NCBI GenBank assembly: GCA_902515355.1
Contig: CABXUA010000006.1
Coordinates: 1 to 51,673 of the forward strand
DNA length: 51,673 bases
From: an uncultured Pelagibacteraceae bacterium
Lineage (GTDB): Bacteria > Pseudomonadota > Alphaproteobacteria > Pelagibacterales > Pelagibacteraceae
Reading direction: 5' to 3'
The notes below the pieces were generated by a model. That model had not been told where the DNA came from, searched no databases, and worked only from the letters and a program-made list of their open reading frames with translations. How positions within the stretch are numbered: position 1 is the stretch's first letter; each line of letters opens with the position of its first letter. Position numbers and translations under genes: made by a program. This document shows, piece after piece, positions 28,872 through 34,489 of this stretch.

Positions 28872-30001
28872 TTTTTATATACTTTTCCAAGGTAAGAATT
28901 AATAAAACTTTTTCTCTTAACTAAAAATTTCATAAAAAAATTTCTAAAACTTTGCATAATTGAACTTGAAAAATGAAAAACAAAAAAATTAAAATTAGAT
29001 CTTTTTTTAATAATATTTGCTCGTTTATATCTCTCATTAAAATAAGTGCTTTGCACATCTGATTTTTCCTCTTTTAATAAATTAAATAATTCATAAGCAC
29101 TCTCTATAGATTGGCTTGCACCTTGAGCCAGGGTTGGTAAAAATCCACTGAAAGCGTCTCCAATGTAAAATACTTTGTTGTTTGAAGATGGAACTATACT
29201 TGTAGTAGAATATAGTGGCCAAGTTTTTAATTCGCCATCAAATAATTTTTTTAAATTTATATTTTGATTTAAAACTTTTTGCTTAATTAAAGATTTTATA
29301 TTGTCTGGATCATATATTTTATTTCTAATAATGCACACAAGATTAAAATCATTATTTTTATTTATTGGGTAAATAGCTAAATGACAATTTTTACCCATAA
29401 TCAAACTTATATTTTTCTCATTTATATCTAAATCTAATTTAGATTTTAAAATTCCTCTTACAGCAATTGCTTTTCTAAATTTTGGGTTAATTTTTCTCTT
29501 TTCAAAGAAAGATTTTGTTGAAGAAAAAATCCCGTCTGCCCCAATAACAAAATCAACTAGATCATTTGAGTTATCCTCAAATTTTATTAGAATCTTCTCT
29601 TTTATTTCTGAAACTTCTTTTATTTTTTTTCCGAACCTTAAATGTTGAGTATAGATTTCATCTTTTAAAAATTCAAATAATGTTGATCTTAGTAAAGTGG
29701 TGTATTTAGACTCATTAGTATTAAACCTATTTATGTCTAAATTACATATTTTTTCATTTTTAATATTGTAAAAATCAACTCCATTAGGGTGATAAATTTT
29801 TTTGTTATCTATTTTTTTAAAATTAATCTGATTTAAAATTTGAATGCTGTTTGTTGATAATTGAATTCCGTATCCTTGATCAAGAGATAAACTGTCTTCT
29901 TTTTCGTATAAAATAAATTCGTGTTTAGAATATTTTTTTAATAAATTTGCAAGAGTAAGTCCTGCTATACCTGCGCCTATGATTGCTAATTTTTTTTTCA
30001 T
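28868..30001 (-). CDS. FAD-dependent monooxygenase (UbiH/PHBH-like)
   Basis: A 377-residue flavoprotein hydroxylase with the N-terminal Rossmann dinucleotide motif IIGAGIAGLTLANLLKK (about 7-22), the middle GADGIFSSTKS (the DG motif) and the GDAFSGFLPTLAQGASQSIE motif near 283-302 that binds FAD ribityl and pyrophosphate. These are characteristic of class A aromatic monooxygenases. Candidate substrates include a ubiquinone precursor, but salicylate- and kynurenine-type hydroxylases share the motifs. Its ATG overlaps the mutY stop (TAATG), so it is probably co-transcribed with mutY. Confidence 0.85.
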   Translation of the reverse strand: MKKKLAIIGAGIAGLTLANLLKKYSKHEFILYEKEDSLSLDQGYGIQLSTNSIQILNQINFKKIDNKKIYHPNGVDFYNIKNEKICNLDINRFNTNESKYTTLLRSTLFEFLKDEIYTQHLRFGKKIKEVSEIKEKILIKFEDNSNDLVDFVIGADGIFSSTKSFFEKRKINPKFRKAIAVRGILKSKLDLDINEKNISLIMGKNCHLAIYPINKNNDFNLVCIIRNKIYDPDNIKSLIKQKVLNQNINLKKLFDGELKTWPLYSTTSIVPSSNNKVFYIGDAFSGFLPTLAQGASQSIESAYELFNLLKEEKSDVQSTYFNERYKRANIIKKRSNFNFFVFHFSSSIMQSFRNFFMKFLVKRKSFINSYLGKVYKN

Positions 30002-31002
30002 TAAAATAAAGTTAAAACCTGTCTAAATATTTTTTTTGTAAAACTTGGAATAAATTCTTTGTTATTTTTAAGAGAATACCAATTATAATTTTGCGGCAAT
30101 TTATTTGAGAACTTGTAATATAAATTAATATTTAATTTTAAATTAGATATAGAATTCTTATATTGATTCAAAAGATTCCAATTTTTATTTTCTGAAAAAT
30201 TATTTGTTTCTTTAATTTTTGGAAGATTGTAATTTTTTAAAAAACTTATTCTGTTTCTTTTGGTAAGAGCTATCTCTTTATTTTTATTTATATAACAAAA
30301 AATATCGTAGTTTTTTTTCTTTATCATTCTTTTCTTTATAGTTTGAATTTTATTTGAAGATTTAAAATACTTGCAAGATTTATTCAAACAACAAATAAAA
30401 CATTTTGGATTCTTTGGTTTACATATTAAAGCACCAAACTCCATTAATGCCTCAACAAAATCCCCATTATTGTTAATGTTAAATAGTTTTTTGCTATTTA
30501 AACTAACAAGTTTATTAAAATTTATTTTTTTTTCTTCTTTATTTAAATTTCTTGCTAATACTCTTTTTACATTTCCATCAATTGCTAGTGTGGGCTGATT
30601 GTAAACCAAACCTAAGAGAGCGTTACCCGTGTATTCACCGATTCCAGGGAGTTTTTTAATTTCTTCTAGCGTTTTAGGTAGTTTCGAATTGTGCTCTTTC
30701 ACCAACTTTTTAGAACAAGCTAAAAGATTTTTTGCTCTCCTATAATAACCAAGTCCTTCCCATGACTTTAAAATTTCTTTTTCGCTACTTTTCGACAAAG
30801 ATCTCAAAGTCCTATATTTTTTTGTAAATTTATTGAAGTAAGGAATAACCGTTTTTACCTGAGTTTGTTGCAACATAAATTCGCTTAAAAGTCTATAATA
30901 CTGCTTTTTTTTAGAATTTTTACCAACACGCCATGGTAGAGACCTTTTATTATTATCGTACCAAGCAAGAATTTTTTTTGATAAATTAGGATTAATATGC
31001 AT
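30001..31002 (-). CDS. mutY: A/G-specific adenine glycosylase
   Basis: MutY removes adenine mispaired with 8-oxoguanine. From ATG at 31002 the protein is 333 residues (upstream codons to 31044 are hydrophobic and not family-like). It has the N-terminal NNKRSLPWR segment, the HhH-GPD region LPGIGEYTGNALLGLVYNQPTLAIDGNVKRVLAR-type (GIGEYTG and catalytic Asp in IDGNV) and a full [4Fe-4S] ligand set CX6CX2CX5C in CKPKNPKCFICCLNKSC. A C-terminal NUDIX-like recognition domain follows (about 225-333). The start codon abuts the divergent DUF721 start: together ATGCAT. Confidence 0.94.
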   Translation of the reverse strand: MHINPNLSKKILAWYDNNKRSLPWRVGKNSKKKQYYRLLSEFMLQQTQVKTVIPYFNKFTKKYRTLRSLSKSSEKEILKSWEGLGYYRRAKNLLACSKKLVKEHNSKLPKTLEEIKKLPGIGEYTGNALLGLVYNQPTLAIDGNVKRVLARNLNKEEKKINFNKLVSLNSKKLFNINNNGDFVEALMEFGALICKPKNPKCFICCLNKSCKYFKSSNKIQTIKKRMIKKKNYDIFCYINKNKEIALTKRNRISFLKNYNLPKIKETNNFSENKNWNLLNQYKNSISNLKLNINLYYKFSNKLPQNYNWYSLKNNKEFIPSFTKKIFRQVLTLF

Positions 31003-31479
31003 AACAAAAAAAAGAATACTAATAAAAGTAACAATTTCATACAAGGTCTAAGACCGCTATCTAGCTCTTTGCCACATGGTTTAAAAAAGATCTTGAAAAA
31101 AGGTGGGTATAACTTCTCTAATATAGTTGATAATTGGACAAAGATGGTTGGAAAGAATATCTCTGAACATTGTTATCCAGATACAATTAAAATGAATAAA
31201 AATATGAATAACGGAGTACTCATTTTAAATGTATTGCATGGAAATGAAATAAACATTGAATATAAAAAACAAGACATCATTGATAAAATAAATAGTTTTT
31301 TTGGCTATAATTGCATAAGTCAAATAAAATTAAAAATTGTCCAAACTGAAAAAAATCCAAAAAAAATAAAAAAATGTATTCATAAAAATTCCTCTGAATT
31401 AAGTAAAAAATTGGATAATATTAAAAATCAAGATCTCAAAAAATCATTAAGTAAACTTATTAAAGCCTACGGTGAATAA
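30997..31479 (+). CDS. DUF721 / DciA-like protein
   Basis: A 160-residue DUF721 family protein. The N-terminal conserved pattern is LKKILKKGGYNFSNIVDNWTKMVGKNISEHCYPDTIKM (domain about 20-90), after a Lys/Asn-rich start. The family includes DciA, which recruits the replicative helicase in bacteria lacking DnaC/DnaI; extension of that role to this protein is inference. It diverges from mutY with overlapping 5' ends and its stop overlaps the next ATG by one base. The order mutY-DUF721-DsbA-smc is recurrent in alphaproteobacteria. Confidence 0.83.
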   Translation: MHNKKKNTNKSNNFIQGLRPLSSSLPHGLKKILKKGGYNFSNIVDNWTKMVGKNISEHCYPDTIKMNKNMNNGVLILNVLHGNEINIEYKKQDIIDKINSFFGYNCISQIKLKIVQTEKNPKKIKKCIHKNSSELSKKLDNIKNQDLKKSLSKLIKAYGE

Positions 31480-32084
31480 TGATAAAAATTTTAAAAAAAA
31501 TAATCCAGTTTAAAACCCTAATTTTCCTATCCTCATTTTTAATATTTACAAGTTGTGACAAAAAAGCTGAAGACAATAAAAAAAATATCAATGGTAAAGT
31601 TGTTGTAAAAGTATTCTCCTCTTTAACTTGTCCTCACTGCGCAAATTTTCATAAAGAAGTAGTAGTAAAACTAAAAGAGCAATATATCGATAAAAAAATC
31701 GTCGAATTTAAACACCATGGCTTTCCATTAGATATGGCTGCTTTAAACGCTGAAAAAATTTTATATTGTTTTAAAGATGAAGAAAAACAGTTCAATTTTT
31801 TGACCAATATTTACGCAAAACAGAAAAATTGGGCTGTGGGACCTGATATAAATGCTATTAATGATTCTATAAAGATAATTGGAAAAGAGCTTGGTCTTGA
31901 TGATAATATGATGGATAAATGTTTAGTTGACAAAAAAATCGAGGAACAAATTTTGGATGAAAGAATTAACGCACAAAAAAATTACAAGATAAGCTCTACG
32001 CCAACTATTTATATTAATAATAAACAATATAAAGGTGATTATGATTTTAAAAAATTTAAAAAGGAATTAGATAAACAACTTTAA
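31479..32084 (+). CDS. DsbA-like thioredoxin-fold protein, probable lipoprotein
   Basis: A 201-residue protein with an N-terminal signal (about 10-25) ending in LIFTSC, a plausible lipobox with Cys26. The catalytic thiol pair is CPHC (51-54, in SSLTCPHCANFH) and the cis-proline loop is SSTPTIYIN. DsbA-type proteins oxidise or reshuffle disulfides in exported proteins. Related proteins encoded just upstream of smc are common in alphaproteobacteria (DsbA/ComA2-like group, reminiscent of BdbD-type). Redox partner not visible here. TAATG coupling with DUF721; smc begins 2 bases after its stop. Confidence 0.87.
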   Translation: MIKILKKIIQFKTLIFLSSFLIFTSCDKKAEDNKKNINGKVVVKVFSSLTCPHCANFHKEVVVKLKEQYIDKKIVEFKHHGFPLDMAALNAEKILYCFKDEEKQFNFLTNIYAKQKNWAVGPDINAINDSIKIIGKELGLDDNMMDKCLVDKKIEEQILDERINAQKNYKISSTPTIYINNKQYKGDYDFKKFKKELDKQL

Positions 32085-32086
32085 TT

Positions 32087-34489
32087 ATGAAATTCAAAAA
32101 ATTAGAAATATCAGGATTTAAGTCTTTCTTCGATAAAACTACTTTTTTAATTGAGGATGGTTTGACAGGAATAGTTGGACCAAATGGTTGCGGAAAGTCA
32201 AATATTGTTGAAGCCTTGAGATGGTGCATGGGTGAGACTTCGGCAAAAAGCATGAGAGGTTCTGGAATGGAAGATGTCATTTTTTCTGGAACTTCCAGCA
32301 GACCAGCAAAAAATATATCTGAAGTCTCAATTTTACTTGAAAATTTAGACAAGGATAGCTCCGCACAATCACAATATAGCGATTTAGATGAAATTTTAGT
32401 TTCTAGGAGAATTGAAAAAGACAAAGGATCAAAATACTTTATTAATAACAAAGAAATAAGAGCCAGGGACGCTCAAACTTTTTTTGCTGACTTGTCTACA
32501 GGTGCCCACTCTCCTTCTATGATTAGCCAGGGAAAAATTGGTACGCTTGTAACATCTAAACCAATTGAGAGAAGATCTATATTAGAAGAAGCTGCTGGAA
32601 TTTCTGGTATTCACGCAAGAAGACAAGAGGCTGAGTTAAGATTAAGCGCAGCAGAAAATAACTTAAAAAGAGCAGATGAGCTAAAAAAACAGCAAGAGAA
32701 ACAATTGGTAAATCTTCAAAAACAAGCTGAGGAAGCTACAAAGTATAAATCAATTTCTGAAGAAATAAAAAAAATTGAAGCTGGATTATACTATTTACGA
32801 TTGAAAGATATAGATAATGAAATTAAGATCGAAAAAGAAATTAATTCTAAAGCAGACAATGAAGTTGTTAAATTTAATGAAAAATTGCAGGAGCTTGAAA
32901 AACAAATAAAAGGTGAAACAGAAAAAATTGAACCTTATAGATTAAAAAATATTGAAAATGTTTCTAGAATACAAAGGTTAAATTTAGAGCTCAAAGGTCT
33001 TGATGAAGAATCTGGTAGAATTCAAATTGAGATTACAAGTATTAAAAATTCATTAAAAACTTTAGACGAAGATATAGATAGAGAAAAAAGCATAGTAATA
33101 GACGCAAAATCAAATGAAAAAAGGATTAAAGAGGAAAGAAATGAATTAATTGAAATAGACTCCAAGTATTTTGAAACTGAAAAACAGTCTAGTGAAGATT
33201 TGGAAATTACAAGAAAAAGTTTAAAAGCGGAAATAGAAAAAGCCAAAGAACTAATAAATAGTAACAAAAAAAACGATGCTATAGATGTTCTTAATAATAG
33301 CATGGCGATTATTGATAAATATGCTGATAGCTATAGTAAAAATCAAAGTATTAAAAAAGAGTCCGTTAAAAGGAACGAGAGAATTCAAGTTATAGAAAAA
33401 GAAATAGAAAGCTGGAAGAATCTTTTAGTAAATTCAGAAAAAATGATTAAAGAACTAAATGGAAGAAAAGAAAAACTTAATCTAAAATTAGATGAGCTTG
33501 AAAAACAACCCCAAACGCAAGCAGAAAAAAAAGGTCAAATCGCTGAAAATTTAAGAATATCAGAAAAAGAAAAAAATGATAATGAGATATTGATAGAAGA
33601 AATGGATAAAAAAACTGTAAATTTAAGAAACGACTTTAACATAATGAGAGAGAACTCTATTGAGACAAGAGAAAGAAAAGCAAGCTCTGGAGCAACAATA
33701 GAGGGATTAAATAAAAGAAGAAAAGATTTGTTAAGTCGAGTTCAAGAAGATCTAAGTCTAAATGAAAATACCTTACTTAGTTTTTCAAATTTAGATAAAG
33801 AGAAAGAATTTCCGGACTCGGTTACTCAAGAGGAGCTTTTAGATTCTAAAAAAAGGGTTAGGGAAAAATTAGGTTCTGTAAATCTAAGAGCGGACGAAGA
33901 AACAAAAAAATATCAAGATGAAATTAAGAAAATGGAGGATGATAGATCAGATCTTTATTCCGCAATCATTAAATTAAAATCGAGCATAGAGGAGCTTAAC
34001 CAAAAAGGAAGAGAGAAACTATTAGATGCATTCTCAAGAGTGAATAGAAAATTTAATGAAGTTTACACAAAGCTTTTTAGTGGTGGAAATGCAAAGCTAG
34101 AATTAGTTGACTCGGAAGATCCACTGGAAGCAGGATTGGAAATGTTAGTTTCACCGCCTGGAAAAAGATTGCAATCAATAACTTTACTCTCTGGAGGTGA
34201 GCAAGCTTTAACAGCATTATCTTTAATATTTGCTGTTTTTCTGGTTAATCCATCTCCGATTTGTGTATTAGACGAAGTTGATGCCCCGCTAGATGACTCA
34301 AATGTTACAAGATTTTGTGCATTATTAGATGAGTTAGTTAAAACTACTAAAACAAAATTTATAATTATTTCTCATCATGCTCTAACTATGTCTAGAATGC
34401 ACAGACTTTACGGAGTAACAATGCCAGAGAAAGGTATAAGTCAACTAGTAGCCGTAAACTTAGAAAAGGCTGAGGAATTAGTAGCTTGA
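32087..34489 (+). CDS. smc: SMC chromosome segregation ATPase, short form lacking an evident hinge
   Basis: SMC organises and segregates the chromosome with ScpAB. The head motifs are complete: Walker A GPNGCGKS (31-38), the QGKIG Q-loop (148-152), the signature LSGGEQ (701-706) and Walker B CVLDEVDAPLDD (726-737), then ISHHALTM. Between heads lies a Glu/Lys-rich coiled coil (about 170-640). Usual bacterial SMC is about 1100-1200 residues with a globular hinge of about 150 residues in the middle. Here total length is 800 and no Gly/hydrophobic hinge segment is visible. The exact midpoint (about 390-420, NSNKKNDAIDVLNNSMAIID) looks like a small helical turn. The frame is continuous, with no sign of a break. 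Its stop is 7 bases before atpI. Confidence 0.9.
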   Translation: MKFKKLEISGFKSFFDKTTFLIEDGLTGIVGPNGCGKSNIVEALRWCMGETSAKSMRGSGMEDVIFSGTSSRPAKNISEVSILLENLDKDSSAQSQYSDLDEILVSRRIEKDKGSKYFINNKEIRARDAQTFFADLSTGAHSPSMISQGKIGTLVTSKPIERRSILEEAAGISGIHARRQEAELRLSAAENNLKRADELKKQQEKQLVNLQKQAEEATKYKSISEEIKKIEAGLYYLRLKDIDNEIKIEKEINSKADNEVVKFNEKLQELEKQIKGETEKIEPYRLKNIENVSRIQRLNLELKGLDEESGRIQIEITSIKNSLKTLDEDIDREKSIVIDAKSNEKRIKEERNELIEIDSKYFETEKQSSEDLEITRKSLKAEIEKAKELINSNKKNDAIDVLNNSMAIIDKYADSYSKNQSIKKESVKRNERIQVIEKEIESWKNLLVNSEKMIKELNGRKEKLNLKLDELEKQPQTQAEKKGQIAENLRISEKEKNDNEILIEEMDKKTVNLRNDFNIMRENSIETRERKASSGATIEGLNKRRKDLLSRVQEDLSLNENTLLSFSNLDKEKEFPDSVTQEELLDSKKRVREKLGSVNLRADEETKKYQDEIKKMEDDRSDLYSAIIKLKSSIEELNQKGREKLLDAFSRVNRKFNEVYTKLFSGGNAKLELVDSEDPLEAGLEMLVSPPGKRLQSITLLSGGEQALTALSLIFAVFLVNPSPICVLDEVDAPLDDSNVTRFCALLDELVKTTKTKFIIISHHALTMSRMHRLYGVTMPEKGISQLVAVNLEKAEELVA

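Follow-up and report, generated by a model that had tools for sequence, protein, structure and literature searches.

The window analysed here, a stretch of 51,673 nucleotides, carries on its forward strand (32087..34489, +) a hinge-less smc gene encoding a protein of 800 aa (P0001), which scores 663.1 bits against TIGR02168, over the cut-off of 567.35. The gene is a single ATG frame, unbroken as the first-pass annotation had stated, and the two head halves described there are indeed intact, with Walker A, LSGGEQ and DEVDAPLDD all present. The N-terminal ATPase head half (residues ~1-170, the border being an estimate; 32087..32596, +) contains the Walker A motif GPNGCGKS from residue 31. The C-terminal half (33950..34486, +), delimited by motifs, AlphaFold2 and a structural match, contains LSGGEQ at residue 701 and VLDEVDAPLDD at residue 727. 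Walker A, signature and Walker B are split across both ends of the protein, as is typical of an ABC-type head. Between the halves, AlphaFold2 places an N-terminal arm formed by a single predicted helix (residues 175-391; 32609..33259, +), an apex consisting of a predicted three-residue turn (residues 392-394; 33260..33268, +), the position occupied in hinged relatives by a domain of ~118 residues, and a C-terminal arm (residues 395 to ~621; 33269..33949, +), of which the arm/head border was estimated as LSGGEQ minus 80.

Directly upstream of smc lies a DsbA/thioredoxin-fold gene (31479..32084, +; PF13462, PF01323), preceded by a DciA (DUF721) gene (30997..31479, +; PF05258) and a divergent HhH-GPD glycosylase gene (30001..31044, -; PF00730), which we take to be MutY-like; ATPase_gene1 and ATP synthase a lie downstream. 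Counted over loci with at least 1.5 kb of upstream sequence, a DsbA-like gene is found upstream of smc in 17/17 SAR11 loci, 2/2 HIMB59-like loci, 5/5 MarineAlpha6-type loci (one locus counted twice) and 42 of 60 other loci; among these 60 hinged loci, DciA is upstream in 19 and a MutY-like gene in 33. Because its upstream genes are common to hinged alphaproteobacterial smc loci, the window locus looks like an ordinary chromosomal smc locus.

The family assignment of P0001 agrees with this setting. The Pfam scan returned SMC_N with 156.5 bits, and in the NCBIfam scan the protein passed the SMC_prok_B equivalog TIGR02168, its best family, with a match in two stretches. SMC heads ranked first in a sequence search of solved structures (5xg3, E 6.5e-94), and the top VIA-align match of the predicted structure was 5xg3_A, an SMC head bound to ScpA (Z 34.5, rmsd 2.4, 368 aligned residues); Foldseek and VIA-align lend support to the SMC-type heads only. 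The gene at 32087-34489 is the orthologous chromosomal smc of a SAR11 bacterium, a member of a group that is among the most abundant marine bacteria, and P0001 is an SMC by descent, not by textbook architecture.

The hinge domain is usually held to join the two SMC molecules, and the first-pass annotation had described the midpoint of P0001 as hinge-less. The stretch named there, NSNKKNDAIDVLNNS, is the site of the AlphaFold2 turn. In this monomer model (17 sequences as input, mean pLDDT 78.4, pTM 0.48) the returning helix runs from residue 395 to 555 and is followed by a broken stretch (~556-601) and a helix (602-664) that continues into the head. The blocks around the tip have pLDDT values of 79-86, and the monomer model contains no globular hinge; the two SMC arms are predicted to terminate in a plain helical hairpin. 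The model of an f2 protein (863 aa) has a helix at 173-416, a loop and helices running back, with a tip of low confidence (pLDDT ~47-51); for this reason it was used solely to note that no hinge was seen.

Sequence profiles gave the same result. PF06470 did not match P0001 even at E<=10 in Pfam, and within alignment A2 it matched 0/17 members at E<=0.1, with SMC_N present in 17/17. As a hinge test we rejected this model as too insensitive, with a match in 58 of 190 alphaproteobacterial genomes, over the cut-off in 56, and a silent Caulobacter control. Since PF06470 provides weak evidence, a local hinge HMM was built from 51 canonical alphaproteobacterial hinges. It scored 64.8-184.7 bits in 40/40 held-out hinged SMCs (36 of 87 canonical sequences failing the motif regex, plus four short hinged ones), which are kin of the training rows and not an independent sample, and <=3.1 bits in 92 of 96 short sequences, a redundant set of which the other four are the hinged positives. 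The HMM divides hinged from hinge-less SMCs without overlap. In profile-profile comparisons with hhalign, the apex profiles of five hinge-less groups matched the hinge profile with a probability of <=0.32%, and the HIMB59-like positive control (two rows) reached 99.3% (E 3.2e-20). None of the SAR11 genomes tested encodes an SMC protein with a hinge domain.

When whole genomes were searched with a hinge alignment of 14 rows as the query, a hinge was recovered in 13/13 hinged control genomes and in 0/40 hinge-less genomes (36 SAR11, four MarineAlpha6-type), from which we conclude that the hinge has not moved elsewhere in the genome; it is absent from the rest of the genome in all 36 SAR11 genomes. 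A stretch conserved at residues ~415-440 in L146 and other f2 loci (EVEGYDDPxNWTxIF) was considered as a hinge remnant and rejected. By eye it resembles the start of a canonical hinge, but hhalign gave a probability of 0.04% and paired it with the later part of the hinge, not its start; it is an apex element of f2's own.

The first-pass annotation had presented P0001 as an unusual SMC. The architecture is real, but it is not peculiar to the genome of the window, being the state of the order as sampled. Within the same genus, 33 of 41 genomes gave a match, with unbroken full-length frames of 804-819 codons, and no second full-length SMC was seen in the 41 genomes searched. The smc of one relative that is 94% complete (L016, G021:C2:149616-152057) has one in-frame TAG, which is either a sequencing error or a sign of a broken gene. 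Across the order, SMC_prok_B matched in 110/117 genomes at E<=0.001, and 74/117 exceeded the TIGR02168 cut-off in a six-frame search; because G270 (E 1.1e-4) and G322 (E 3.0e-5) match weakly, we count 108 genomes with a clear SMC. Among the matches listed, complete SMC frames of the order measure 799-891 aa, five shorter frames (348-746 aa) are pieces, and there is no full-length hinged SMC. No clear SMC was found in the SAR11 drafts G270 (97% complete), G322 (94%) and G034 (91%), probably owing to assembly gaps.

In the class, 111/190 genomes exceeded the cut-off, and most full-length frames among the matches listed measure ~1150-1200 aa. In a larger draw of the class (272/385 genomes with a match), short, single-piece SMCs were found among the matches listed in SAR11, f25 (four genomes), f142, f119, f51 and f32, and among the members with short SMCs that were tested, the hinge is missing only in SAR11 and f25 (MarineAlpha6). 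A wider survey of the phylum (277/398 genomes with a match) yielded single-piece SMCs in only two SAR11 genomes among the matches listed. In the head tree SAR11 forms one clade (100/100) amid hinged alphaproteobacteria. The best head trees place MarineAlpha6, a long branch of odd composition, apart from SAR11, and their starred branches force two changes; the one-change topology occurs in 1% of bootstrap trees, and a single hinge-less clade is not rejected (AU p 0.238). On the basis of these trees, hinge loss is derived and took place once or twice.

Arm lengths were estimated as half of the distance from Walker A to LSGGEQ minus 220, and minus a further 118 if hinged, with constants of our own choosing. 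For P0001 this gives 225 residues, within the 200-230 per arm of the first-pass annotation. Among hinged SMCs, 73 of 88 distinct sequences have arms of 340-349 residues, in agreement with the printed mode of 341, the lower printed mode being 238 (PMC5344682). The 72 distinct hinge-less sequences fall at 224-232 (35 sequences), 253-256 (34) and 265 (three) residues; Bacillus subtilis Smc arms are functional again at 253-267 residues (PMC5344682). Lengths within groups are almost constant, with 798 aa in seven and 857 aa in 12 distinct sequences, and the main difference between these two classes is a pair of ~30-residue segments flanking the motif ~VKELI...A..LD.C. Arm shortening also occurs separately from hinge loss. 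The hinged short SMCs L068 (G070), L151, L222 (G201) and L223 (G407), of 863-935 aa, have arms estimated at 198-233 residues. The HIMB59-like (863-864 aa), f142 (880 aa) and f51 (935 aa) proteins have arms that roughly equal those of SAR11 in length or fall below them, and come from genomes of 1.4-1.6 Mb, but unlike the SAR11 proteins they are hinged (76.7-142 bits with the local HMM).

The tip sequence varies between SAR11 genera and families. When conservation was scored in 25-residue blocks, the tip ranked last in the Pelagibacter-like group (0.48; 20 sequences) and last but one in g1 (0.47, with 576-600 lowest at 0.43; 20 sequences); in f2 (15 sequences) the tip block 426-450 scored 0.57, above 351-375 at 0.52. 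In 16 canonical SMCs two hinge blocks (0.58, 0.65) exceed the adjacent arms. Median dN/dS in two groups was 0.015-0.053 for the heads, 0.037-0.099 for the arms and 0.122 and 0.177 for the apex, based on 28 and 66 pairs with synonymous sites near saturation (pS 0.53-0.70). Every part of the SMC is under purifying selection, with the apex under the loosest. Just below the apex, residues Y412, A413, K428, R429, R432, E439 and W443 are invariant in 14 family f1 sequences; this sub-apical element (residues 412-443; 33320-33415, +) is a possible contact or DNA site.

The arms of the window gene appear to differ in ancestry from its heads. Residues 1 to ~205 and ~605 to 800 of P0001 are nearest to its own genus, and the heads share 87% identity with L002. 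P0001, three g1 rows and the L104/L148 line are united by a 96/89 branch in the careful head tree; in the quick head tree the placement of P0001 has no starred support. According to trees and identity windows, the segment from residue ~221 to ~600 (32747..33886, +), which comprises the whole arms and tip, is nearest to another SAR11 genus, g172. The arm tree places P0001 within g172 (SH-aLRT 100, nested set 96), using a quick method that issued a long-branch warning on other rows. Exact DNA runs common to both genera near the joints do not exceed 27 bases, so that an assembly chimera is not obvious, on the evidence of one draft genome. The window smc is either a chimera or the product of a natural swap of the arm cassette; if the mosaic is real, a whole arm-plus-tip cassette has been naturally exchanged under foreign heads.

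ScpA and ScpB, which the first-pass annotation had proposed to look for, were each found in 41/47 genomes, side by side: both are present in 32/36 SAR11, 1/2 MarineAlpha6-type and 8/9 hinged genomes, including 10/10 single-contig SAR11 genomes (G138, G230-G236, G238 and G241). Neither was found in the SAR11 drafts G000, G306, G302 and G032, of which G000 is the window's own assembly (28 contigs, 75% complete). A ParB-family protein was detected in 25/25 genomes (21 of them SAR11), G000 included; because TIGR00180 is broad and also matches the Escherichia coli control, this count refers to a ParB-family protein and not to a proven chromosomal loader. Since the system has the heads, kleisin, kite and ParB-family protein of a condensin, SAR11 bacteria very probably possess a functional ParB-SMC-ScpAB complex. 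The SAR11 protein shares with the canonical SMC of SMC-ScpAB (TIGR02168) the heads, LSGGEQ, Walker motifs and antiparallel arms, as well as the ScpA/ScpB/ParB context and the upstream dsbA-like/dciA/mutY-like genes. It differs from it in lacking the hinge, in its arms (~225-265 versus ~341 residues) and in its total length (~800-880 versus ~1150 aa).

As to how such a complex may work, we incline, with moderate confidence, to a ParB-loaded SMC-ScpAB condensin in which the apex is joined by hairpin packing instead of a hinge. The suggestion of the first-pass annotation that dimerisation would use a minimal helical turn or take place elsewhere, as another way to build a loop extruder, is a reasonable one. 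ATPase heads, kleisin and kite would act as in other condensins, and weak helical packing of hairpin against hairpin would join the SMC arms at the apex, with help from the kleisin bridge, ATP-driven engagement of the heads and rod-like contacts between the arms. The hinge would have been lost after, or along with, the shortening of the arms from ~341 to ~225-265 residues. There is experimental precedent for exchanging the hinge: in B. subtilis the unrelated Rad50 zinc hook replaces the Smc hinge with normal growth in rich medium (PMC5344682), which indicates that the fold itself can be dispensed with as long as some dimerising module is still there, and in fission yeast the hinge of MukB or of B. 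subtilis Smc can substitute for the Rad50 hook (PMC6969161). The zinc-hook Smc works, like the SAR11 SMC, without the hinge fold, but it is engineered and retains a dimerisation module (PMC5344682). Low conservation of the tip in two of three groups counts against a hairpin dimer, because one would expect stronger conservation in a specific dimer interface, and the dN/dS of the apex is the highest of the parts compared. The variation of the tip between genera and families and the low confidence of the predicted f2 tip count against it too.

The same data would suit a complex that has no stable apex dimer and no closed SMC ring, in which nothing but ScpA, ScpB and a transient, ATP-dependent engagement of the heads links the rods, and the heads fold DNA in a cycle of clamping or pulling. 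To this tentative reading we give a lesser but appreciable chance. In its favour are the highest dN/dS at the apex, its low conservation in two of three groups and the different tips of sister groups, and P0001 has neither a zinc hook nor a globular domain, with ScpAB retained. Nevertheless, the near-invariant lengths within groups suggest a geometric role for arms and tip, at least one block is less conserved than the tip in f2, and both printed hinge swaps retained a dimerising module. That the SAR11 ParB-SMC-ScpAB motor lacks both hinge and closed ring and that, in addition, its arm-plus-tip cassette is exchangeable between genera seems to us a shade more doubtful still.

Bridging of the tips by another protein, replacing the hinge in trans, is improbable in our view: the invariant sub-apical residues of the 14 f1 sequences could form its binding site, but the search of the 40 hinge-less genomes did not recover the ancestral hinge at any other place. 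We regard it as highly improbable that the protein has given up its condensin role and acts as a Rad50/RecN-like repair ATPase. Its hinge-less outline does resemble a Rad50 without its hook, as Rad50/SbcC likewise combines a head and coiled coil without an SMC hinge, and Rad50 heads are also among the VIA-align matches of P0001. Rad50 models, however, score far lower (<=39.9 bits against 663 for TIGR02168, among the matches listed, best 25 of 40 families), ScpA/ScpB are retained, no second full-length SMC was seen in the same-genus genomes searched, and the upstream genes match canonical smc loci. Moreover, Rad50 has a CXXC zinc hook (PMC12153180), whereas a check of cysteine positions found no cysteine, and so no CXXC, in the arms of P0001, of which all four cysteines (C35, C47, C726 and C744) lie in the heads. 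A frameshift, assembly deletion or pseudogene, for which the in-frame TAG of G021 and the fragmentary draft of the window might speak, has a negligible chance and is already refuted for the order, as the frame is intact and under purifying selection, and as separate assemblies of relatives, single-contig genomes included, share the architecture among the complete SMC frames listed, which rules out an assembly error at the window locus.

A hinge-less SMC cluster is already in print. Sussfeld et al. (2025) described an oceanic 'hinge-less' cluster, assigned to Actinomycetes and placed near the base of the actinobacterial SMCs (PMC12153180). Compared by description, it resembles the SAR11 SMC in its SMC heads, coiled coil, missing hinge, lack of CXXC and marine origin, and differs from it in assigned taxonomy. 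The main text of that paper mentions neither SAR11 nor Pelagibacter nor ScpA. Its retrieval required 80% length coverage (PMC12153180), which by our reading would exclude a protein of 800-865 aa against a seed of 1150 aa. The term 'hinge-less SMC' occurs twice in a paper on Smc5/6 (PMC8327961), and the terms SMC, chromosome segregation, hinge and condensin are all absent from a paper on Actinomarinales (PMC7771536). Among the matches listed from open-licence PMC, none dealt with a SAR11 SMC that lacks the hinge.

The loss of the hinge may provide SAR11 with a clean character. The membership of HIMB59 in SAR11 is disputed (PMC3815206), and HIMB59, which we infer to be G070, would retain the hinge. 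Roles attributed to the hinge are dimerisation and DNA binding (PMC12153180) and, more recently, the gating of obstacles (PMC12647877). If the SAR11 motor is an open ring, it would show that SMC-kleisin complexes can function without apex closure, hinge gating or a DNA channel in the hinge. Because the hinge has been lost while the SMC machine and its partners have been kept, SAR11 constitutes a natural test of the need for a hinge: with a large natural clade that lacks it but has kleisin, kite and a ParB-family protein, the question of what the hinge is for can be answered with natural proteins.
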